A stretch of 43,669 nt of DNA from positions 1 to 43,669 of IMG/VR virus record IMGVR_UViG_3300020810_000912. One strand, given 5' to 3'. The notes under the pieces are model-generated. The model was not told the origin of the DNA, searched no databases, and saw only the letters and a program-made list of their open reading frames with translations. Each line of letters starts with the position of its first letter. Positions within the stretch are counted from its first letter, which is position 1. This DNA comes from a virus. A program made the translations under genes and the position numbers. This document shows positions 14,661 through 24,454 of the stretch, in pieces.

Positions 14661-15455
14661 TTAGAATGGCATTTCAGGCTCAGCTTTCATCTTTTCCATA
14701 AGCTTACGGGCAATGATTTTGGTTTCCTTTGAGAACTCCCCTTTATCAATCATCCATTCAATGTAACGAGAATCGGCTTCATATACTTCACGGAAAGGTT
14801 TTCCACTCCACTTACCAAAGTTAAATACGATTTCTTTCTTTCCATTGATTTCAGCAAACTTAAACTTACCACTTAGGTCAACTTGAGTTTGGCGAGATTC
14901 ATTAACTACTTTATCAATTTCTTCAACTGTTTGTGGCATATCATAGAGTTCACGTTGAGCTTGGAAGATTTCCATTGTTGCACGAATATCATTCTCTGCG
15001 CGGTGTGCGCCTTCTAAAGTCTTACCTGTGTATTTCGTATATGCCGTGCTTAAGTCTCTTCTTTCATATTTTGAGTATATAAGGAAAGGATCAATAACAG
15101 CTCGGTTACGATGATTAAAAACAATACCAGCTCTCATAAGTTCTTCGGTAAGCATTGGGATATCAAAGTAAAGTGCATTATAACCACCAAGATCAGAATC
15201 TCCAATAAAGTCTACAACATCCTTTGCCATAGCCTCAAACCTATCTTGGTCTTCTAATAGATCTGGTGTAATTCCGTGTTTATCAATTGCTTCTTGTCTC
15301 CATTCAACATTAGTGCCGGGATTTACAAGTGAATAAAAACTATTAATTTCATTTCCATCAAGATCGGTCTTTATCATACAAATCTCAATAATACGATCTG
15401 TTGCTGTGTTTACTCCAGTGGTTTCCAGATCAAACCATACAATACTCTTAGCCAT
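14661..15455 (-). CDS. DEDDh 3'-5' exonuclease (DnaQ/ExoX-like) with C-terminal domain
   Basis: A 264-residue exonuclease. The DEDDh residues are Asp9/Glu11 (WFDLETTG), Asp98 (GGYNALYFDIPML) and His151/Asp156 (AHRAENDIRAT). The C-terminal third, VFNFGKWSGKPFREV followed by YIEWMIDKGEF, fits the small ExoX-like C-terminal domain. It removes nucleotides from 3' ends, much as T4 DexA does for host DNA breakdown or recombination. It is separated from the tape-measure gene by a short AT-rich region and probably begins the accessory transcription unit. Whether RNA or DNA is the main substrate is open. Confidence 0.88.
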   Translation of the reverse strand: MAKSIVWFDLETTGVNTATDRIIEICMIKTDLDGNEINSFYSLVNPGTNVEWRQEAIDKHGITPDLLEDQDRFEAMAKDVVDFIGDSDLGGYNALYFDIPMLTEELMRAGIVFNHRNRAVIDPFLIYSKYERRDLSTAYTKYTGKTLEGAHRAENDIRATMEIFQAQRELYDMPQTVEEIDKVVNESRQTQVDLSGKFKFAEINGKKEIVFNFGKWSGKPFREVYEADSRYIEWMIDKGEFSKETKIIARKLMEKMKAEPEMPF

Positions 15456-15520: not shown

Positions 15521-18500
15521 TTAATCAGGAATTTCTATCTTAATAGATTGAATAGCTGCAGGTAGAGAACTCATTGTAGAATTAAGTCTGCTAAGTGTGC
15601 TATTAAGTTTTGAGAATGCAGCAGAATTTCCAGAATCTTTTGGAGGAGTTCCTTCGCCACCACCGCCAGGTACACCTTCGCCGCCACCGCCAGATTCTGC
15701 CAAGAGATCTCGTATGTCTTCAACCGCTCTATATAAATCGTTGTATGCACGACGATTTCTACTTAGTTCACCTGCACCCTTAAATAAGTTTCCTAAAGCT
15801 TCAGCTTTGTAAATATCTGTAGAATTAATAGCATTTACAAGTTCTTGCATATCATCAGCAGCCTTTGCCAATGAATTGTCTTTGGCTGCATCAGTCAAAT
15901 TAGTTATCCAAACTCTAAAATGACTCATTCTTGATCTTGTGTCTTCAGGGTTATAAAGATTTTGGAATGTATCTGCAATATTATTAAATATTGAAGATAT
16001 ACTTTTTGCAACTTTAGCTGGATTCTTTATACCTGCAAAAGCCTCAATACCTTTTGCAATGTTTATTAATTCTTCCCCAGCACCCTTAACGGCATCTATC
16101 CCTTCCGCTACTAAATTCTCATCCCATGTTATTAAACCAAAGAAACTACTATCAGTTTCTTTCATTCCACCAACAGCAGAAAATGCATCTCCTACAAAGG
16201 TTACTGAATTTACAATTGATGTTTTTAACTTATCCCAATCTACCTTTTGATCTATTAGTTTTTGGAATGTCTCTAATCCTGTTGCAATGTTCATAAGTTC
16301 TTCTCCTGCACCCTGAACTGCATCAACACCTTTTTCAACAAGGTTTTCATCCCAACTAAATATAAACCATCCGTCTTCTTCTTCCTTACCACCAATTACG
16401 GCAAAGGCATCACCAACAAAAGTTAATGAATTTGTAACGGCTTGTTCTAATGCGCCACCTTTACTAAAATCAACTTTTGCTTTAACTAATTCCTGGAACT
16501 TAGAAAGACCTTCTGCAATATTAGTTAATTCTTTACCTGCACCGCTTACTGCGTCAATACCTTTTTCTACCTTATTCTCATCCCATCTAAATGGACCCCA
16601 TGAATCTTCAGTTTCTTCTCCACCTATAGTAGCAAAAGCCTTACTAATAAAACCTAATGAATCTGTAACGGCTGTGTATAAGAACCCACCTTCCATGAAT
16701 GATTCAGAAGTTAGCCCGTAATTGTTCTTAAGATCTAAAAATCCTTTAAGACCTTCTGTTATGTCTTTTAGTGCTTTACCTGATCCTTTAACTGCATCAA
16801 TACCTTTTTCAACACTGTTCTCGTCCCAGCTAAATATTCCCCAAGAATCTGACGTTTCATTAGTACCGATTGCGGCAAAAGCAGAGTTTAGGAAACCTAG
16901 AGTTTCAGTTATAGCAGTGTTAAGATAACCGCCTTCTTTAAATGCATCACCGTCTAATTTGTATTTCTTTTTAAGATCTAAGAATGAAGCAAGCCCTTTT
17001 GTTATTTCCATTAGAGCCTTACCTGAATCCATTACTGAATCAATACCACGTTCAGTAGCATTAGGACTAAATGTATTTCCAAATACTGCACCAAACAATC
17101 CACCTGGGCTAGCAGGTTCTCCGCCAGCTTGGGCAAATGCTCCACTAACAGATCCTAATGCTATTGCTAATTCTTTTGAATCATCTTCTGTAAAACCGAC
17201 TGCTTTAAAATCAGTTAAGCCTTTTGATAATTCTTGTAATGCGGAACCAGCAGCAGCATACATTTTAGCTGCAGCTAATCCACCGCCACTCTGTACTACC
17301 CTAGTAAATAAACCTTTTAACATTCCAAAAGCCCCAGCTTCAGGATCAACACCAGAGAATGCCATTGCAACGGCACCTAATGTAGTAGCGAGATCTTTAG
17401 AGTCTTGTTCAGAATATTCTAAATCCTTCATTGCCTCAAGTCCTGGTGCTAATAATGTTAATGACCATCCAGCAGCAGCATAAAGAGCAGGTCCTAATAA
17501 TATAGCACCAGCGGATGCCGTAACAGCAAGACCTGCTAATGCCATTATACCACCTACCGCTAATAGGACACCACTTTGTATTCCAACATCTGCTAATGAC
17601 ATTCCTTTAGTTGCATCGGCAAAAGGAACATAACCCATGTTAAATACAAGCAATCCTAATCCGTTAAGAGCTAATGATAATGCACCTAATGCAATATTAG
17701 TTAATCCAAATTTTCCTACTATTGCAGTAGCAATTCCTATACCTGCTATAGCAGCAGCTTGTATTAAAACATCTTTAAAACCTACATTCTTAGGAAATGC
17801 GGCAGCAAAAATTCCATACCCTATACCAAAGACACCTACGGCTGCCCCCATAATAAGTAAGTTAAGAGAGCCTCTTCTTACCTTTTTACTCATTACTTTG
17901 GTACCTAGTAAAGCAACAGCCCCACCTATAAGTACTAATGATAAAACCATTCCTAGCAAAATTGCAGGCTGTTTAAGGATAAAGTATGTAGTAAGAGCAA
18001 ATGCAGCCATTCCAATACCAAAGGAAAGAATAGCATCACCCATTCTATCAACAGATCTAGCACCCTTTCTAATGTTCTGTGAAAACTTTTTATTACCAAG
18101 AAGAGAAAAGACACCGCCCATAATAAACAGAGTAGGTATAAGAATAGGTAAGCCTACAAGACCTATTAAGATAAGAGGTGTTGCTAAAGCCAAACCTCCA
18201 GCAAACTTTATAATAGCATCTCCCATAGAATCCAATGCATCAATCCCTTTCTGTACTTTCTTTGTATTGAAGGATTCAAATCTTTCAAATGAGTTAACTA
18301 CAAAATCCAGGAATTTATTAACAGCTCTTTTAGGAACAATACTCCACACTAACATCGCCTTACCTGTAAGTAAAGCGCCGTATCCTAAATCCTTTAATGC
18401 TGAAGCGGCTTTGCCATCAATCTTTCCACTACTCTTCTTATTAGTAGTCTTATCGCTACCTGTGCTTTTATTATTAGCGTTTTTTGCAAGTATTTCTAAG

Positions 18501-18820
18501 TTTTTAGAATCTCTATTACCTAAAATTCTATCTCTTATTGCTTGTCTTATACTATCACCTGCAAATGATCTAGCACCTTCTTCATGCATTATTGCCACAC
18601 CAAGATGTTGGCCTATTAGTGATCTAATATTTTGTAATACTGATAACTGTTGTTGTGAGACCGAAAGTATAGCAGCAGATGTGGCATCAGCACTACCCGT
18701 TGAACCCATACCCTTAACGATAAAATCTTCAATTCTTTTAACGCTTTCGCTGGTTTCTTTTGAATAAGCCTCTATCTTAGATAGAGGGCTCATCAAGTCT
18801 TTTAAGGTTACTGCTGCCAT
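15521..18820 (-). CDS. Tail tape measure protein (probable)
   Basis: A 1099-residue protein, the longest in the window. The N-terminal 130 residues are helical and polar. Residues about 200-480 hold many Gly/Ala-rich hydrophobic segments, as in tape measures. Residues about 587-927 are four to five degenerate repeats of 75-80 residues, each with a GKxLxxIxxGL-type helix and a W-DEN-VEKGI-type turn. The C-terminus has a Gly/Pro-rich linker. Its place directly after a chaperone-like pair and the tail tube fits a tape measure that sets tail length. It is larger than T4 gp29 (about 590 residues), so a longer tail is possible. A membrane-protein alternative is less likely in this context. Confidence 0.7.
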   Translation of the reverse strand: MAAVTLKDLMSPLSKIEAYSKETSESVKRIEDFIVKGMGSTGSADATSAAILSVSQQQLSVLQNIRSLIGQHLGVAIMHEEGARSFAGDSIRQAIRDRILGNRDSKNLEILAKNANNKSTGSDKTTNKKSSGKIDGKAASALKDLGYGALLTGKAMLVWSIVPKRAVNKFLDFVVNSFERFESFNTKKVQKGIDALDSMGDAIIKFAGGLALATPLILIGLVGLPILIPTLFIMGGVFSLLGNKKFSQNIRKGARSVDRMGDAILSFGIGMAAFALTTYFILKQPAILLGMVLSLVLIGGAVALLGTKVMSKKVRRGSLNLLIMGAAVGVFGIGYGIFAAAFPKNVGFKDVLIQAAAIAGIGIATAIVGKFGLTNIALGALSLALNGLGLLVFNMGYVPFADATKGMSLADVGIQSGVLLAVGGIMALAGLAVTASAGAILLGPALYAAAGWSLTLLAPGLEAMKDLEYSEQDSKDLATTLGAVAMAFSGVDPEAGAFGMLKGLFTRVVQSGGGLAAAKMYAAAGSALQELSKGLTDFKAVGFTEDDSKELAIALGSVSGAFAQAGGEPASPGGLFGAVFGNTFSPNATERGIDSVMDSGKALMEITKGLASFLDLKKKYKLDGDAFKEGGYLNTAITETLGFLNSAFAAIGTNETSDSWGIFSWDENSVEKGIDAVKGSGKALKDITEGLKGFLDLKNNYGLTSESFMEGGFLYTAVTDSLGFISKAFATIGGEETEDSWGPFRWDENKVEKGIDAVSGAGKELTNIAEGLSKFQELVKAKVDFSKGGALEQAVTNSLTFVGDAFAVIGGKEEEDGWFIFSWDENLVEKGVDAVQGAGEELMNIATGLETFQKLIDQKVDWDKLKTSIVNSVTFVGDAFSAVGGMKETDSSFFGLITWDENLVAEGIDAVKGAGEELINIAKGIEAFAGIKNPAKVAKSISSIFNNIADTFQNLYNPEDTRSRMSHFRVWITNLTDAAKDNSLAKAADDMQELVNAINSTDIYKAEALGNLFKGAGELSRNRRAYNDLYRAVEDIRDLLAESGGGGEGVPGGGGEGTPPKDSGNSAAFSKLNSTLSRLNSTMSSLPAAIQSIKIEIPD
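16040..17060 (-). repeat. Four to five degenerate 75-80-residue coding repeats
   Basis: Inside the tape-measure gene, each unit carries an opening helix (DAVKGSGKALKDITEGL and variants), a hydrophobic helix (SLGFISKAFATIGG and variants), then SW-x-DENxVEKGI. Boundaries are approximate; the copies are clearly diverged at DNA level. Confidence 0.65.
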
Positions 18821-18830
18821 ACTATATTTA

Positions 18831-19079
18831 TTAGAACTTAGGCATGCTTATTTTCGGCATTGATGGAGTTTTATATGATGACATATTTTTCATCTGTTTT
18901 TTCATACCTCCCATATCATATTTATCCCCATACGACGTCTGTTGCTTGCGCTCATCATCGTTACGCTCTTTCATTATGTCATTAAACATTTCAAGAGTGT
19001 ACTCATATTCATAGAAAGGAAGCAAATCCAGCTCAGATGGCTGGAGATGCAACTTTTCCAATAATAAGACTCTAACCTT
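18831..19079 (-). CDS. Tail assembly chaperone C-terminal extension (frameshifted ORF)
   Basis: 82 codons in the +1 frame relative to the upstream gp26-like gene, starting at AAG 19079-19077 and ending just before the tape measure. The peptide begins KVRVLLLEKLHLQPSELDLL and continues PFYEYEYTLEMF, then a Lys/Met-rich tail. It has no ATG until the Met of TLEMF, so the conserved-looking part must be read by a +1 slip at CTT TAA G, or from the TTG at 19061. Short frameshifted chaperones directly before the tape measure are common in long-tailed phages. An ATG at 19253 in this frame exists, but the peptide before 19080 looks non-coding. Confidence 0.6.
   Translation of the reverse strand, partial: KVRVLLLEKLHLQPSELDLLPFYEYEYTLEMFNDIMKERNDDERKQQTSYGDKYDMGGMKKQMKNMSSYKTPSMPKISMPKF
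19027..19045 (-). other. Small stem-loop 3' of the candidate frameshift site
   Basis: TCCAGC / GCTGGA, a 6-base-pair stem with a 7-base loop, about 32 bases downstream of the CTT TAA G site. It could be a stimulatory element or simply chance; the spacing is longer than usual for a frameshift stimulator. Confidence 0.25.
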
Positions 19080-19083
19080 AAAG
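19077..19083 (-). other. Candidate programmed +1 frameshift site CTTTAAG
   Basis: The gp26-like gene ends GAA CTT CTT TAA G. Slippage of tRNA-Leu from CTT to TTT at the stop codon gives AAG next, entering the chaperone-like frame. This is the same geometry as the bacterial prfB (RF2) site CTT TGA C, with TAA as the slow stop. No strong upstream Shine-Dalgarno stimulator is visible. Confidence 0.5.
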
Positions 19084-20082
19084 AAGTTCAGAAGTGATAT
19101 CTTGAATAATAAAGAGAGCCTTGACACCGCCGGGAAAGGAAAGCGGAACTGTGACCTCCGCACCACAAGATTCACATGGATAGATAAACTCAGGTTTAAC
19201 TCCAATTTTCGCTTTTTCCACAAGTCTGTAAATGATTGAAAATTTATTAGCATCCCAGCCTTGGAAATTTGTTATTGCAGAAAAGATTTCTTTATCATTG
19301 AAACCTCTCCACTCTCTTTGTATATAAGGTAGTATGGTAAGTGATGACCTATCCCAAGATTTACCTTCTTCTTCACGTTTTCTAATCCATGTTGTAATTG
19401 CTCGCATAACACCAATTGTAGGCGGTGCTAATGTAAGCTCTCCATGTTTTTTTGTTGGAATAGTAAAACACTTATTCTGATAATCGTAATACTTTTCTAG
19501 TAACTCGTCCCCTTCTTGGAATTGAAGATTAGTAGTTTTAAGCTCTACGGAATCCTGAGATTTACATGCTCCAGTTGGGCATGCCTTTTTACCTACTGGC
19601 ATCATAAGTTTATTTTCACCGCTCTTAAATGTTAATTCGCGGATTGCCAAAATTAAAAAGATTCTATCTTCTTCTAAAACATCTCTATATGAACCTCTTT
19701 GTGTACCATACATTATCTTAGTACAGTTAACAAGAATAGAATTTAACTTTTCATCTACATCTAAAATGTTATCTTCATCCAATGTAGAAAATTCTCTAAT
19801 TTCACCAACTCTTGCGGCTCTAATATGAATTTCAAAATCTTCTCTATAGAATTTACCTTTTGATGGGAAGTTACCTAAATCTAATTTTACATAACCTGCT
19901 AAAGCTTGAATTCTCTGTATTTCAGGATCGTCTGGTGATGTAATTCCACTACCCCTGGTGGTATCAACCTTACCCAGTTCAGTAATTACACCATCCTCAT
20001 TAGTCTTAACAGTGGCTTCAGTATCTTGTATACCTTCAGCTGCTTCAAACTCTTTTTTAATGTTGTCTTCGTGACTACTCAT
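19078..20082 (-). CDS. 26: gp26-family baseplate hub/tail assembly protein
   Basis: A 334-residue protein of the T4 gp26-like family. DLGNFPSKGKFYREDFEIHI (68-87) is the typical LPSKG-x-Y start of that family, followed by an acidic helical region. Two cysteine pairs (C168/C173, and C303-x-x-C306 in YPCESCGAEV) suggest zinc binding. The C-terminus FPGGVKALFIIQDITSELL runs into the CTT TAA frameshift candidate. It probably acts in tail or baseplate assembly with the overlapping chaperone-like frame and the tape measure next to it. The N-terminal 60 residues are acidic and likely disordered. Confidence 0.75.
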   Translation of the reverse strand: MSSHEDNIKKEFEAAEGIQDTEATVKTNEDGVITELGKVDTTRGSGITSPDDPEIQRIQALAGYVKLDLGNFPSKGKFYREDFEIHIRAARVGEIREFSTLDEDNILDVDEKLNSILVNCTKIMYGTQRGSYRDVLEEDRIFLILAIRELTFKSGENKLMMPVGKKACPTGACKSQDSVELKTTNLQFQEGDELLEKYYDYQNKCFTIPTKKHGELTLAPPTIGVMRAITTWIRKREEEGKSWDRSSLTILPYIQREWRGFNDKEIFSAITNFQGWDANKFSIIYRLVEKAKIGVKPEFIYPCESCGAEVTVPLSFPGGVKALFIIQDITSELL

Positions 20083-20089
20083 AATTTAT

Positions 20090-20557
20090 TTAATTTTTTG
20101 TTAATTGTTTTTCTGGTGATGTCTCCTCTACTATATGCTCAACAATAAGTTGTCTAACATACCTAGAAACTGGCATCGGTTTTGTTTTTGTTTCCATTGA
20201 TTTTTGAATGATGATAGTATTAAGGTTATCTTCATCTTCAGGAGTTAAAAGAACTTGTAATTTTTTTGTAAGTCTTTTCTTTTGTGGAATCATTTCCTGT
20301 ACGCTTTCGTTGTAACCATATTTAGGATTGTCAGCTTTGTATTTTTTAATCCAAAACTCTACCCTATCCATAATATGACCTAATGACTCGTCTGTTTCAA
20401 ATTCTTCAAGAATGGTTTTAGTAAAAGACTTTGTACCAAAATCCTTCACCGCCCTCTTAATGTATTTTCCAGACCCTAAGTTATTAGGATTGTCATTAAC
20501 TGAATAACCTACATAAACTTTCCCATCTGTTTGATTTTTTACTTTAAATATCTTCAT
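20090..20557 (-). CDS. GIY-YIG endonuclease with ribbon-helix-helix-like C-terminus
   Basis: A 155-residue protein. The N-terminus IFKVKNQTDGKVYVGYS is a GIY-YIG start, followed by LGSGKYIKRAVKDFGTKSF as in phage Seg-type homing enzymes, and RVEFWIKKY with the likely catalytic Glu67. Residues about 100-142 (LQVLLTPEDEDNLN, then MPVSRYVRQLIVEHI) look like a ribbon-helix-helix DNA-binding unit. It is probably a free-standing homing endonuclease lodged between the tail tube and gp26-like genes. It has its own AT-rich upstream motif. Cleavage site and activity are not visible from sequence. Confidence 0.75.
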   Translation of the reverse strand: MKIFKVKNQTDGKVYVGYSVNDNPNNLGSGKYIKRAVKDFGTKSFTKTILEEFETDESLGHIMDRVEFWIKKYKADNPKYGYNESVQEMIPQKKRLTKKLQVLLTPEDEDNLNTIIIQKSMETKTKPMPVSRYVRQLIVEHIVEETSPEKQLTKN

Positions 20558-20645: not shown

Positions 20646-21206
20646 TTAGGTTCCAGCACCAACGTTCTCCTCAACCCAATGATCACAACGATAAGTCATT
20701 GTTAAATCAACAGCATCTGGAGTTTCATAACTCAATTCATCTACAAAATCAGGTTGTCCTGTTGGGAATACATCTTTACAAGTAATCTTTCTAAAAATAT
20801 CACCTGCTCTGTTGTACTGTACAATAATCATACTTCCAACATAGTCCTTCTTCAATCCCATTTCGCCAGTCAATGGATCGTAAACTAATTTATACCAGTT
20901 ACGGAAGGTATTGTAAATGTAGTTTTCGTTTGCTTCGTTTAAGTTCAAACTGAAGTTAACAGTGAGATCCATGAATGTCTGTCCTGGCATACTTGCAAAC
21001 GAACGATCAGCAAATTTATATTTCTGACCTATTGCATCTACAGAAGGGTTAAGGTTATTTAATCCTCCGATTGTTTTAACCTGTTCCAAGATTAATCCAG
21101 TATCATCACCTAGTGGCGTAAACACAGTCACCTCAAATAAATTAGGTTGGATAGGTTCATATCTCTGACTGCTAGCCCTTGATTGTGTATAATGTGGTAA
21201 TGGCAT
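20646..21206 (-). CDS. 19: Tail tube protein gp19
   Basis: A 186-residue protein, close to the length of T4 gp19 (163). LFEVTVFTPLGD (23-34), the SFASMPGQTFMDLTVNFSLN strands and the C-terminal LSYETPDAVDLTMTYRCDHW follow the gp19 tube fold and its inner beta-barrel. It polymerises inside the sheath to form the DNA channel. It is flanked by its own GAATATATAAA promoter motif and a strong terminator, so it is likely highly expressed late. Confidence 0.9.
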   Translation of the reverse strand: MPLPHYTQSRASSQRYEPIQPNLFEVTVFTPLGDDTGLILEQVKTIGGLNNLNPSVDAIGQKYKFADRSFASMPGQTFMDLTVNFSLNLNEANENYIYNTFRNWYKLVYDPLTGEMGLKKDYVGSMIIVQYNRAGDIFRKITCKDVFPTGQPDFVDELSYETPDAVDLTMTYRCDHWVEENVGAGT

Positions 21207-21244: not shown

Positions 21245-24200
21245 TTATTGGAAGTTACCTGAGCTTATTGCACCTGTCTTAAGAATTGTAGTTCTTTGGA
21301 CGAGTATTTCCATTCCTCTTACCGGCTCAATATAAGTATCTAAGATACCAACATTTTGATCAATAACTTCTGGTGTATTATTGGTTTCATCCATAATATT
21401 TCTGAAGTCATAAACACCGTCATCATTCTGAACAGTTGATAAGAAGTTATCAGCAAGTGTTTTAATTTCCAATCTTGTTTGAGCTGTATTAAATTCAAAC
21501 AAGTAGTTTTTAAGAATTGCATCAATACCATCTTGGATGTAAATTACAACCTCTCTAACGTTAATTGAACTTAATGCAGATTTTGTAGTCTGCTGTGCAG
21601 TTTTGTTAGCAAAGATTGTTGGACCAGTTCCACTTTGGAATACAATCGGATTCAATCCAAATGGCTCCAAGTATTCTCTGTCCTCTTTTCCAAGATTTAA
21701 TTCTAAGCCGACAACACCAGTTCCACCAACAACACCTCTACGAACACCTGCAACTAATGACCATGGTAAAGCATTTTCATATTTTGCAATAAAGTTATTA
21801 GAAATATATGCAGCGGGTGGTACATTGATATTCTTCCCAAGATCTCTTACGGTAATGTAAGGATAATAGAATGCTCCCCAACTCGCACCTTGTGTTTGAG
21901 ATGGTAATGAATATCTTACAGTTGGATTTTTACTAAGATCTCCACCAGTAGAAATAAATCTAGATGAAAGAGTTCCAGTAGCATCCAAGAATGTAGGATC
22001 AGTATTAGCCTTAAAGTCCTTAGCAGAAGGTGCATTCAGAATAGCAAATGCATTCTTTCTAGTAGAACAGAGGTTTGTATAGATTGCTTTAGATCCACTT
22101 TCAATACCGTTTCCAAAAGTATCAACGACATAACGGAAGTTAATAACATCTCTATCAGTTAATGCTTTAAATAGATTAGTTCCGTTAAGAGTACCATTTA
22201 ATATAGCATTTTGTCTTTGGTTTGATCCATCAGGAACATGTTTAGTGTTATCTAATTTAAATCCATCTAAAGTGAATACATTTAAGTAATCAACCCATGC
22301 ATCAATTGGATAGTACAATTCTACCTTTTTAACTCCACCTGCAGTAGAAGTTGAAATTTCACTTTGGCAAGTTACTAATAATGCAGTTTTTCCTGCAGGA
22401 ATTGTGCTGTATTCAGAATTAGTTAATCCTCCTTGTACAACATTAATTCTTGTTAACCTTGAGTGAGGAACATTAACAGAACCTTCAAAGTGTACTAAGT
22501 AATTTCCTACAACTACATCAGCAGCATCAGGATTAGCAGCATCAATTAATATTTGATTAGGTCTAAGAGCAGTTTCGGTTAACGAATCAGCCAAGATATC
22601 AATTGAAAGGTTATTTGCACCTTTCAGCGTTTGAATTCCAAAAACATTTGCACCGTATGCAACAGCATCAGAATTTAAGAAAACACCTGCACCATCTAAA
22701 GTAAATTCAGCATGAGGCGTTAAGTTATTAAATGCATCTTCCTGGTAAGCAAGAACCTGAACAGAAGGTAAGCTATATGCCGGGTCAGATATTGCAACAG
22801 TATCAACAGCAGTTGTTGGAGTTCCTACGTGAATAAACCCATAATCAATAGCATTAAATACTAAGTATGAAGTATATTGAGTTCCACCATCTAAGTATAC
22901 TGCTTCATCACCATCAGTAAGTGTACCGTTAGCAAATTGGCTATATAACATAGATCCATAAGAACCGATGATACCTGCAGTTGGATTAGCTAGTGGAAGT
23001 TCATCAGCAACGAATCCAAAGTCACTTTCATTAATATAGGTATATGTTGCACCAGAAGTAGGGAAGTCAGTATCAGTAACTCCACCAACAGATGATAACA
23101 ATAATGTAACTGTATTTCCAACAACTTGGTGAGATATAACAGGAACATATTTTGAAATAACAGAATCAAAGATATAGGTACCTACAACAGTTGAGCTGTT
23201 TGCAGTCATATTAGCAAATGAATCAAAAAATGAATCACCTGCAGTTCCTTGTACTTGGATTTGAATATCTCCACTAGTAACAGTTGTTGCAGAAATTAGA
23301 GTCCCAGTAGATTGTGTAATAACATTAGGTACAGTTGCAGCCCTGTTATAACTTAAATCAGAAACAATAGCTCCACTGTATGATAAGAAATTAACATCAT
23401 CCTGGATTGAAGTAGCTTGAGTATATTCAAGGTTATGTCCAATCAGATCAATACCACCAGCAACACCGTCAATTAAAAAGTCTCCACTAAAGAGGTCCTC
23501 ATTAACAGTTATAAATAATCCGGTAGATGCAGTGTTTGCATTAACAACTTTTTCTACGAAAAGGTTATTTCCAAGTAAATCCACAAAATCAGGAATTAAT
23601 GATGCAGTATAGGTTGCAATAACATTAACTTCACTTTCATTAAAGAATTCAGCAATCTTAGTATCAGTTGCATCAGAATCAAATAATCTTCTTTTCAATC
23701 CTTGTGTTTTATCAAAGTAAGTTTGGAAGATTGGATCAGAATCAAATCTTTCATAAGGTGTTGCAGAACTAAAGTCTCCACCGAAGTTTCCTGCAATTAC
23801 AAAGATATCAACTAAGAAGTCTGATACCAAACTATCTTTATCTAAGAATCCTGGAACATTTGCAGCTCCGTACCATTCTTCAACAGTTACATTAAAACCT
23901 GCAGAGTTTGCAGCAGATGCTTTTCTTACAATAACAGAAATTGGATTCTGTCCTAAGTTTACCATATCTAAAAGATCATTGGTAGTAGTAGAACTTAATA
24001 CCTGTCTGTTTGCTCCAACGTTATCTAGGAATGCGTCAGAATCTGGATAGAAGAATTTATCTCTGTTATAGAATTTTTGATATTCTCCCATTGCACCTGA
24101 ATTGTTTTGTACTTCCGGTGTAGATGAAGTACCAAACTTAATGTACTCAACTTTATCGTTTGAGTCTAAATTAAGAAGATTAAGAGCCAAGATAGGTCCT

Positions 24201-24454
24201 CTTTCCAATGCTGCTAAACAGCTTCTGTGGAAATAAGAATCTTTTCTCTCTAAGTTTCTATCAATGTCGCCGTATACTTGCTTAAAGAACGCAGTATCTG
24301 GTACAAAAACTGGGGTGTTAAACGGTCCAGTTTTAGAGAAACCGACAATTAACCTTGTCTGATTAGCAGGAATACTAACAACTTGAGACTTATCAAACTC
24401 AAATCTGTAAGTACCTGCAGCTTTAATCGAAGCGATTTTCGGATCTAGTGCCAT
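21245..24454 (-). CDS. 18: Tail sheath protein gp18, enlarged
   Basis: A 1069-residue sheath protein; T4 gp18 has 659 residues. The N-terminus (RLIVGFSKTGPFNTPVFV, then KQVYGDIDRNLERKDSYFHR) and C-terminus (QTRLEIKTLADNFLSTVQND to YIEPVRGMEILVQRT) match sheath proteins. The middle, about residues 330-620, is Ser/Thr/Ala/Val-rich and beta-like, and probably forms extra surface domains. It contracts during injection. A late-type motif lies upstream. The inserted part has no counterpart that I recognise and could be a receptor or decoration domain. Confidence 0.9.
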   Translation of the reverse strand: MALDPKIASIKAAGTYRFEFDKSQVVSIPANQTRLIVGFSKTGPFNTPVFVPDTAFFKQVYGDIDRNLERKDSYFHRSCLAALERGPILALNLLNLDSNDKVEYIKFGTSSTPEVQNNSGAMGEYQKFYNRDKFFYPDSDAFLDNVGANRQVLSSTTTNDLLDMVNLGQNPISVIVRKASAANSAGFNVTVEEWYGAANVPGFLDKDSLVSDFLVDIFVIAGNFGGDFSSATPYERFDSDPIFQTYFDKTQGLKRRLFDSDATDTKIAEFFNESEVNVIATYTASLIPDFVDLLGNNLFVEKVVNANTASTGLFITVNEDLFSGDFLIDGVAGGIDLIGHNLEYTQATSIQDDVNFLSYSGAIVSDLSYNRAATVPNVITQSTGTLISATTVTSGDIQIQVQGTAGDSFFDSFANMTANSSTVVGTYIFDSVISKYVPVISHQVVGNTVTLLLSSVGGVTDTDFPTSGATYTYINESDFGFVADELPLANPTAGIIGSYGSMLYSQFANGTLTDGDEAVYLDGGTQYTSYLVFNAIDYGFIHVGTPTTAVDTVAISDPAYSLPSVQVLAYQEDAFNNLTPHAEFTLDGAGVFLNSDAVAYGANVFGIQTLKGANNLSIDILADSLTETALRPNQILIDAANPDAADVVVGNYLVHFEGSVNVPHSRLTRINVVQGGLTNSEYSTIPAGKTALLVTCQSEISTSTAGGVKKVELYYPIDAWVDYLNVFTLDGFKLDNTKHVPDGSNQRQNAILNGTLNGTNLFKALTDRDVINFRYVVDTFGNGIESGSKAIYTNLCSTRKNAFAILNAPSAKDFKANTDPTFLDATGTLSSRFISTGGDLSKNPTVRYSLPSQTQGASWGAFYYPYITVRDLGKNINVPPAAYISNNFIAKYENALPWSLVAGVRRGVVGGTGVVGLELNLGKEDREYLEPFGLNPIVFQSGTGPTIFANKTAQQTTKSALSSINVREVVIYIQDGIDAILKNYLFEFNTAQTRLEIKTLADNFLSTVQNDDGVYDFRNIMDETNNTPEVIDQNVGILDTYIEPVRGMEILVQRTTILKTGAISSGNFQ

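Follow-up and report, generated by a model that had tools for sequence, protein, structure and literature searches.

How could ribosomes enter a coding frame that overlaps the end of a phage tail gene and continues past its stop codon? The question is raised by a locus in the window, by which we mean the whole 43,669-nt stretch of viral DNA analysed here. A 334-aa gp26-like open reading frame (ORF) on the minus strand ends ...TCT GAA CTT CTT TAA GGT (stop codon at 19080-19078), and the +1 frame past this stop reads KVRVLLLEKLHLQPSELDLLPFYEYEYTLEMF... for 82 codons to 18834, with its own stop at 18833-18831. The initial annotation had drawn attention to this overlap, which is real, and had stated that the extension has no ATG before a Met-Phe at residue 31. 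That is correct downstream of the gp26-like stop, where a TTG is found at 19061, but not upstream of it, where the +1 frame is open too and has an ATG at 19253. On the comparisons described below, we put at roughly 85% the probability that a programmed +1 frameshift makes a T4-type tail assembly chaperone pair from this one gene.

Gene neighborhood of the overlapping frames

The features discussed here are, from upstream to downstream on the minus strand:

21245-24454, minus strand: tail sheath protein (PF17482, E = 2.3e-10)
20646-21206, minus strand: tail tube protein (phrog_45, 2.7e-7; phrog_3629, 1.2e-6)
20090-20557: gene for a GIY-YIG homing endonuclease, flanked by the tube and chaperone genes
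19078-20082, minus strand: frame-0 gene, 334 aa, gp26-like (TAC-N or 'G' product; phrog_36717, 4.9e-25; phrog_150, baseplate hub, 7.3e-4)
19149-19168, minus strand: possible hairpin that ends 5' of the slip site and has a loop containing GGAG; weak in the window's own sequence (pair counts in favor, energies mixed)
19155-19159, minus strand: GGAGG, Shine-Dalgarno (SD)-like, 17 nt 5' of UUU
19132-19137, minus strand: UUU_CCC, where the +1 slip is proposed (F316, from UUU to UUC; the codon that follows is CCC in frame 0 and CCG in +1)
18831-19133, minus strand: predicted extension in the +1 frame ('T' domain; resembling the gp51 C-terminus), with 100 codons past the slip and a stop
15521-18820, minus strand: 1099-aa protein, the likely tape measure (by position and length only), encoded immediately after the chaperone gene

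The gene order is thus sheath, tube, homing endonuclease, gp26-like gene and 1099-aa ORF, with the gp26-like gene sitting between tube and tape-measure-like genes, the place of a tail chaperone gene. The overlapping frames had been described as lying directly before the tape measure. The 1099-aa ORF does come next, and position and length are what give it its name; it matched no tape-measure profile in Pfam or PHROG. Directly past it, at 14661-15455, lies a gene resembling a DNA polymerase exonuclease subunit (phrog_192, 1.3e-46). No tRNA gene was found in the window.

The +1 extension is conserved among relatives

We scanned IMG/VR with the 334-aa protein and analysed the best 80 of 135 confirmed loci. 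All 80 of these best loci carry a +1 extension of 82-86 residues after the gp26-like ORF, and in all of them the ORF closes with ...SELL-stop and is followed in the +1 frame by K[VI]RVL..LHxQP[ST]ELD. A search of named-phage proteins matched 31 records, of which 13 were fetched, the remainder being mostly more Lak genomes and repeat records. The fetched set comprises Chryseobacterium phages MA9V-1/2, phage PAU, Tenacibaculum phages pT24 and PTm1, Flavobacterium phage MaF61, two Lak phages and five uncultured-phage records. The continuing frame is +1 in 13/13 of these distant records; in one of the two Lak phages it is open throughout only with TAG read as Gln. In the deposited MA9V-1/2, PAU and PTm1 genomes (L083, L084, L085, L088), the extension is present as short hypothetical ORFs with internal starts, and its conserved N-terminal part is missing.

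All scans together gave 280 loci for consideration (two of the further scans contributing their best 80 each). Three were removed, one for being too short and two because the locus held no stop, and the remaining loci gave 127 distinct regions, which fall into 14 clusters at 60% identity, hereafter lineages. The two clades used throughout are the window clade (W) and a huge-phage clade (K). Three viral scans came back either empty or with just the phage of the query, and the sole locus from a scan of genome contigs (L282) was set aside, its translation being unlike a relative. The window phage had been taken for a T4-like phage. Its named relatives are instead large phages of Chryseobacterium, Tenacibaculum, Flavobacterium and Prevotella, together with PAU, whose recorded host is Sphingomonas, and the window phage is not close to T4. 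We take the hosts of these named relatives to be mostly Bacteroidota.

By synonymous chance, an open +1 frame through the overlap has a probability of 0.28 in the window and of 0.03-0.91 over 17 sequences. Because openness by chance is not improbable, an open frame is by itself weak evidence. Beyond chance are the same-frame extension in all 80 close loci (best 80 of 135), purifying selection on the +1 frame after the stop and fewer synonymous changes before it. Over the first 12 post-stop codons, pN/pS in the +1 frame is 0.09 in W and 0.07 in K, and in the six codons right after the stop pS is 0.43 and pN 0.04 in W (0.54 and 0.04 in K). Comparison of the relatives thus portrays the +1 frame as a conserved coding frame with no start codon common to the clades, which is the kind of other-frame extension expected of a tail chaperone gene. 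That a +1 shift would join the gp26-like protein to a tail-chaperone-like frame, as the initial annotation proposed, agrees with the same two frames recurring in 80/80 loci (best 80 of 135).

Entry to the +1 frame maps to or beside UUU_C in most lineages

We counted synonymous change in frame 0 over independent pairs (22 pairs from 45 sequences in W; 28 pairs from 56 sequences in K). From the UUU codon to the stop there are 23 synonymous changes in W versus 96.2 expected (24%; z -9.2) and 9 in K versus 158.6 expected (6%; z -14.7). The upstream part of the gene is not depleted, with 1087 versus 980 expected in W and 1542 versus 1381 in K. Codons from the GGAGG block to UUU are likewise not depleted in K (24 versus 15.0 expected) and partly depleted in W (13 versus 32.2 expected), the latter being something that a slip alone fails to explain. 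Several relatives, unlike the window, have a +1 frame that is closed just 5' of the slip site. The +1 stops lie at most one codon 5' of UUU_C in L082, L113, L091 and L202-L207, and the shift in these sequences must therefore occur at or past UUU_C.

UUU_C is present in 13/14 lineages (clusters at <60% identity), L094 being the one without it, and in the Chryseobacterium phages MA9V (L083, L084) it is displaced downstream by about 8 codons. UUU is mostly followed by CCC, and in some relatives by CCT (CCU), CCA, CAA, CGA or CTC; since varied codons follow it, the element in common is UUU and not CCC. tRNA-Phe(GAA) decodes both UUU and UUC, and a P-site tRNA on UUU_C can accordingly re-pair in +1 in these 13 lineages, as programmed +1 frameshifting calls for. 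CCC occupies the site in 44/47 W and 56/56 K sequences, compared with 5/530 and 8/452 among the other Pro codons of W and K. The context is uncommon in the window as well: C follows 2/118 TTT versus 20/50 TTC codons in six minus-strand genes, and 33/454 TTT versus 39/137 TTC codons in 35 mechanically chosen ORFs (Fisher 8e-10), among which in-frame TTTCCC occurs once, at the proposed slip site. In-frame TTTC is less rare in relatives, where only 11 distinct loci pass a single-TTTC filter. Taken together, these comparisons place entry to the +1 frame at or beside UUU_C in most lineages, and the best reading is that the window's slip site is UUU_C at 19137-19134, not CTT-TAA.

Alternative routes into the +1 frame

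The initial annotation set the shift at the stop codon, with peptidyl-Leu-tRNA slipping from CTT to TTT at TAA in the manner of RF2. CUU_U is a known RF2 shift site (PMC5009743), and CTT TAA closes the gene in the window and in 16/34 distinct W sequences; the remaining W sequences end in TTA (16) or CTA (2), the other large clade has GAA in 53/54, and TTA, CTA, GAA, ATT, GAG, AAG, TTT or AAA precede the stop in other relatives. Because this codon varies, CTT-TAA is not the shared feature. The pre-stop codons are also synonymously constrained, with depletion reaching 19-21 codons 5' of the stop, and a slip at the stop would leave those codons free. Neither mark of an RF2-type site was found, that is, a conserved CUU-stop or an SD-like sequence directly beside the shift codon: the slip codon UUU lies inside the gene and the SD-like motif 17 nt away from it. 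The alignment of homologues that had been recommended as a check therefore upheld the +1 extension and not the CTT-stop, and a slip at the stop codon now seems very improbable. About equally improbable is a -2 shift of the kind used by phage Mu, which leads into the same frame as +1 (PMC5009743). Re-pairing at -2 is permitted by ATT TTC in K but not by CTC TTT, CTG TTT or TTA TTC in W, and in the overlap, viewed by eye rather than by systematic scan, no codon seemed capable of -2 re-pairing in every lineage. An indel or assembly error, also raised at the outset, has a negligible probability given identical frames in 80/80 loci kept (best 80 of 135).

A less remote rival is a separate overlapping gene with an internal start, perhaps reached by coupled re-initiation, at TTG 19061 or 19052 in W and at an ATG at +1 codons -10/-9 in K. 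Depositors of related genomes annotated separate small ORFs, +1 codon +9 is TTG in 34/38 W sequences and ATG in 2/38, and in most K sequences the +1 frame offers an ATG at codon -10, codon -9 or both. Yet no ATG/GTG/TTG position is common to both clades, and L091-L093 lack all three codons between codon -22 and post-stop codon 12, where their +1 frame is open. The depositors' starts are scattered over +1 codons 19 (MA9V), 27 (PAU), 31 (PTm1), -2 (MaF61) and -8 (pT24), and those of MA9V, PAU and PTm1 remove the conserved QPSE-type motif. The TTG at 19061, which had been named as a competing start, fares no better, as selection in the +1 frame is already purifying at W codons 0-5, which precede both TTGs (pS 0.43, pN 0.04). 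In K, synonymous loss begins at codon -21, eleven codons ahead of the first ATG, with column -17 still varying. We regard a separate gene as distinctly unlikely. Only slightly easier to entertain, and still unlikely, is the same +1 shift with the tRNA slipping on CCC (CCC to CCN) instead of UUU, which would give an identical protein. CCC is near-constant at the site while rare elsewhere and can re-pair in +1, but lineages with CAA, CGA, CTC, CCT or CCA after UUU still have UUU_C and the extension. A +1 slip of tRNA-Phe on UUU_C is thus the reading that we carry forward.

A GGAGG element and a possible hairpin lie upstream of the slip site

GGAGG is found exactly 17 nt 5' of UUU in 112/127 distinct regions (12 are without it and 3 have another spacing; L094 was entered in this tally with an assumed slip site). 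The block shows 0 synonymous changes versus 14.5 expected in W and 4 versus 24.1 expected in K. A possible hairpin with GGAG(G) in its loop ends 10-11 nt before UUU. In K (57 distinct sequences), 332/342 cells are paired versus 225 expected from codon usage; 0/200 resamples reach 332, and 0/500 within-column shuffles reach the observed value (mean 322). In W (21 distinct sequences), the count is 135/147 versus 110 expected, reached by 0/200 resamples and 1/500 shuffles (mean 132). Compensating changes (TA/CG and GC/CG) are seen in K. Hairpin energies compared with synonymous resampling are mixed, with z from -5.3 to +0.9 over 20 sequences and +0.5 in the window, and a competing hairpin in W uses CCG at 19146-19144. 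Because of these mixed energies and the competing hairpin, and because the sequences are related, we treat the upstream hairpin as possible only.

No strong consensus RNA structure was found 3' of the slip in W or K. At 19044-19061, W +1 codons 6-11 have a pS of 0.15 versus 0.43 for codons 0-5, which could reflect a hairpin or a second start. In the MA9V phages (L083, L084), the GGAGGTC element reads GCGAGACA. Bacteroidota ribosomes are described as mostly disregarding SD sequences, and those of Weeksellaceae as having an altered anti-SD, UCUCA (PMC8710568). The GAGA of the MA9V element might match the altered anti-SD of Chryseobacterium relatives, an observation on two phages with the same element.

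Relatives link both parts of the proposed fusion to T4 baseplate hub assembly families

We next consider the proteins that the two frames encode. Apart from the PHROG matches listed above, of which that to phrog_150 is weak, the window's frame-0 protein has no Pfam match. Its relatives L082 (8.3e-7) and L090 (1.2e-5) match PF12322 (T4_baseplate) above its cut-off, and 5/14 members of A1 match phrog_150, so that the frame-0 protein falls in PF12322/phrog_150 like a T4-type chaperone. The extension matches phrog_634, the family of T4 gp51 (baseplate hub assembly catalyst), in 7/20 members, with a best value of 4.5e-6, others of 8e-4 or weaker where shown, and coverage of about profile positions 56-119 of 121. 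It is through these relatives that the C-terminal domain of the long form falls in the gp51 family. The other matches among the 20 members are to phrog_8286 (unknown; 10/20) and phrog_9001 (tail assembly chaperone, 0.0015; 1/20). As the window protein lacks a Pfam match and its own extension matches phrog_8286 only (0.0036), homology to gp26/gp51 rests on the relatives. When profiles were compared directly with the T4 proteins, the alignments were weak or misplaced (hhalign probability 8%, 45% and 0.5%), and the gp26/gp51 link therefore rests on family models.

The predicted structure of the fusion (mean pLDDT 76.7) consists of a domain folded up to residue 313, a low-confidence stretch at 317-320 and four helices beyond it, an arrangement that would set the slip (F316) at a domain border. 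A fold search of the PDB gave 0/64 matches at E <= 0.001. Among BFVD predicted viral structures, 41/166 matches reached E <= 0.001, including T4-like baseplate hub assembly proteins (e.g. 3.3e-7).

Proposed mechanism

In the model that we favor, most ribosomes would translate 334 codons and stop, giving TAC-N (gp26-like). With peptidyl-tRNA-Phe on UUU (19137-19135) and rare CCC waiting in the A site, some ribosomes would slip one base forward, the tRNA re-pairing with UUC. These ribosomes would then read 100 +1-frame codons to give a TAC-NC with a helical gp51-like C-terminal domain; the 416-residue length given for such a fusion in the initial annotation agrees with the length computed for the +1 product. 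By analogy with lambda gpG/gpGT, the two products would bring tube subunits to the tape measure. Ribosomal slippage as the mechanism, its efficiency and any help from GGAGG or a 5' hairpin are what we infer from these patterns.

A fuller version of the model is tentative, and we lean somewhat against it as a whole. The signal could consist of a UUU_C slip and a rare A-site codon, driven by a GGAG(G)-displaying hairpin near the mRNA exit of the ribosome that either pushes the ribosome forward or captures the anti-SD, and the two products of the gp26/gp51 chaperone would thus be made by three routes, namely a -1 shift, a +1 shift and gene duplication, the +1 route belonging to phages of Bacteroidota. 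Titles and abstract openings, in a literature search outside most subscription journals, yielded no description of a UUU_C +1 site.

If the frameshift is real, one conserved chaperone pair would be produced through opposite frameshifts in different phage groups and from two genes in T4, and having both a short and a long form would be selected for, whatever the mechanism. Gene calls in named relatives would need correcting, as the extension has been split off and, in MA9V, PAU and PTm1, truncated. It would also mean that phages of a phylum where the translational role of mRNA-rRNA pairing is debated carry a natural +1 site that is widely conserved.

Comparison with known systems

Lambda G/GT and P2 E/E+E', as in our model, have a frameshift close to the end of the gene that precedes the tape measure, so that a short product and an extended one are made (PMC5009743; P2 record). 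The shift in both is -1, unlike the +1 shift proposed here, and a -1 slippery heptamer of the lambda or T4-like type does not fit this locus, as the frame is +1 in the relatives examined. The resemblance between the P2 E' tail and the extension came down to a short motif (hhalign probability 4%) and was rejected. The tail chaperone of HSTV-2, an archaeal myovirus, is reported to use very likely a +1 shift, as proposed here (PMC5009743, PMC8211752). The RF2 gene prfB, including that of Flavobacterium johnsoniae, is an instance of +1 slippage accompanied by an AGGAGGU element in a host from the Bacteroidota, and Bacteroidia are reported to carry the prfB site despite an occluded anti-SD (PMC8710568). 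The prfB site is CUU_UGA, at a stop codon and with the SD next to the P codon, whereas here the site is UUU_C, the A-site codon is a sense codon and GGAGG is 17 nt away.

In T4, gp26 and gp51 are described in a review as hub assembly chaperones, gp51 being essential and of unknown function (PMC3004832). Both T4 proteins match PF12322 (8.8e-64 and 3.9e-52) and are similar to each other (BLASTP 2e-6), and gp51 has an extra C-terminal part (147-246) that matches phrog_634, like the fusions of the window's relatives. For these reasons we equate gp26 with the short and gp51 with the long product. In T4 the two forms are two divergently oriented genes, without a frameshift. Vladimirov, Gautam and Davidson reportedly identified the TAC genes of T4-like phages in 2022. 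According to a 2025 paper that cites Vladimirov et al. 2022, TAC-N genes of T4-like phages are known to contain poly-T signals (PMC12846349), and on that statement the -1 case and the T4-like chaperone genes were already known.

Our own T4-like comparison covered six records. In four of the six (S-PM2, HTVC008M, phiM12 and PhiW-14), a single PF12322 ORF precedes a phrog_634 domain encoded in an overlapping frame, as here, and in HTVC008M and phiM12 the tube gene lies upstream and a tape-measure-like gene downstream, as here. The second frame in these four is -1, with a U_UUU_UUC/U heptamer, unlike the +1 frame of the window. Their gp51-like part (L295 in S-PM2, L303 in HTVC008M, L298 in phiM12, L299 in PhiW-14) resembles a -1 frameshift fusion at the end of the gp26 ORF, and it is annotated as a separate gene in S-PM2, HTVC008M and phiM12. 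The other two records are T4, with its two genes, and Rhodothermus phage RM378 (L300/L305), whose PF12322 ORF ends past CC UUU UUU UGG and is continued in the +1 frame. RM378 may be another +1 case, an uncertain one because the continuation has no phrog_634 match. Judged by these sequence comparisons, the locus presents itself as a +1 variant of the known T4-type tail chaperone system, with a conserved site of its own.
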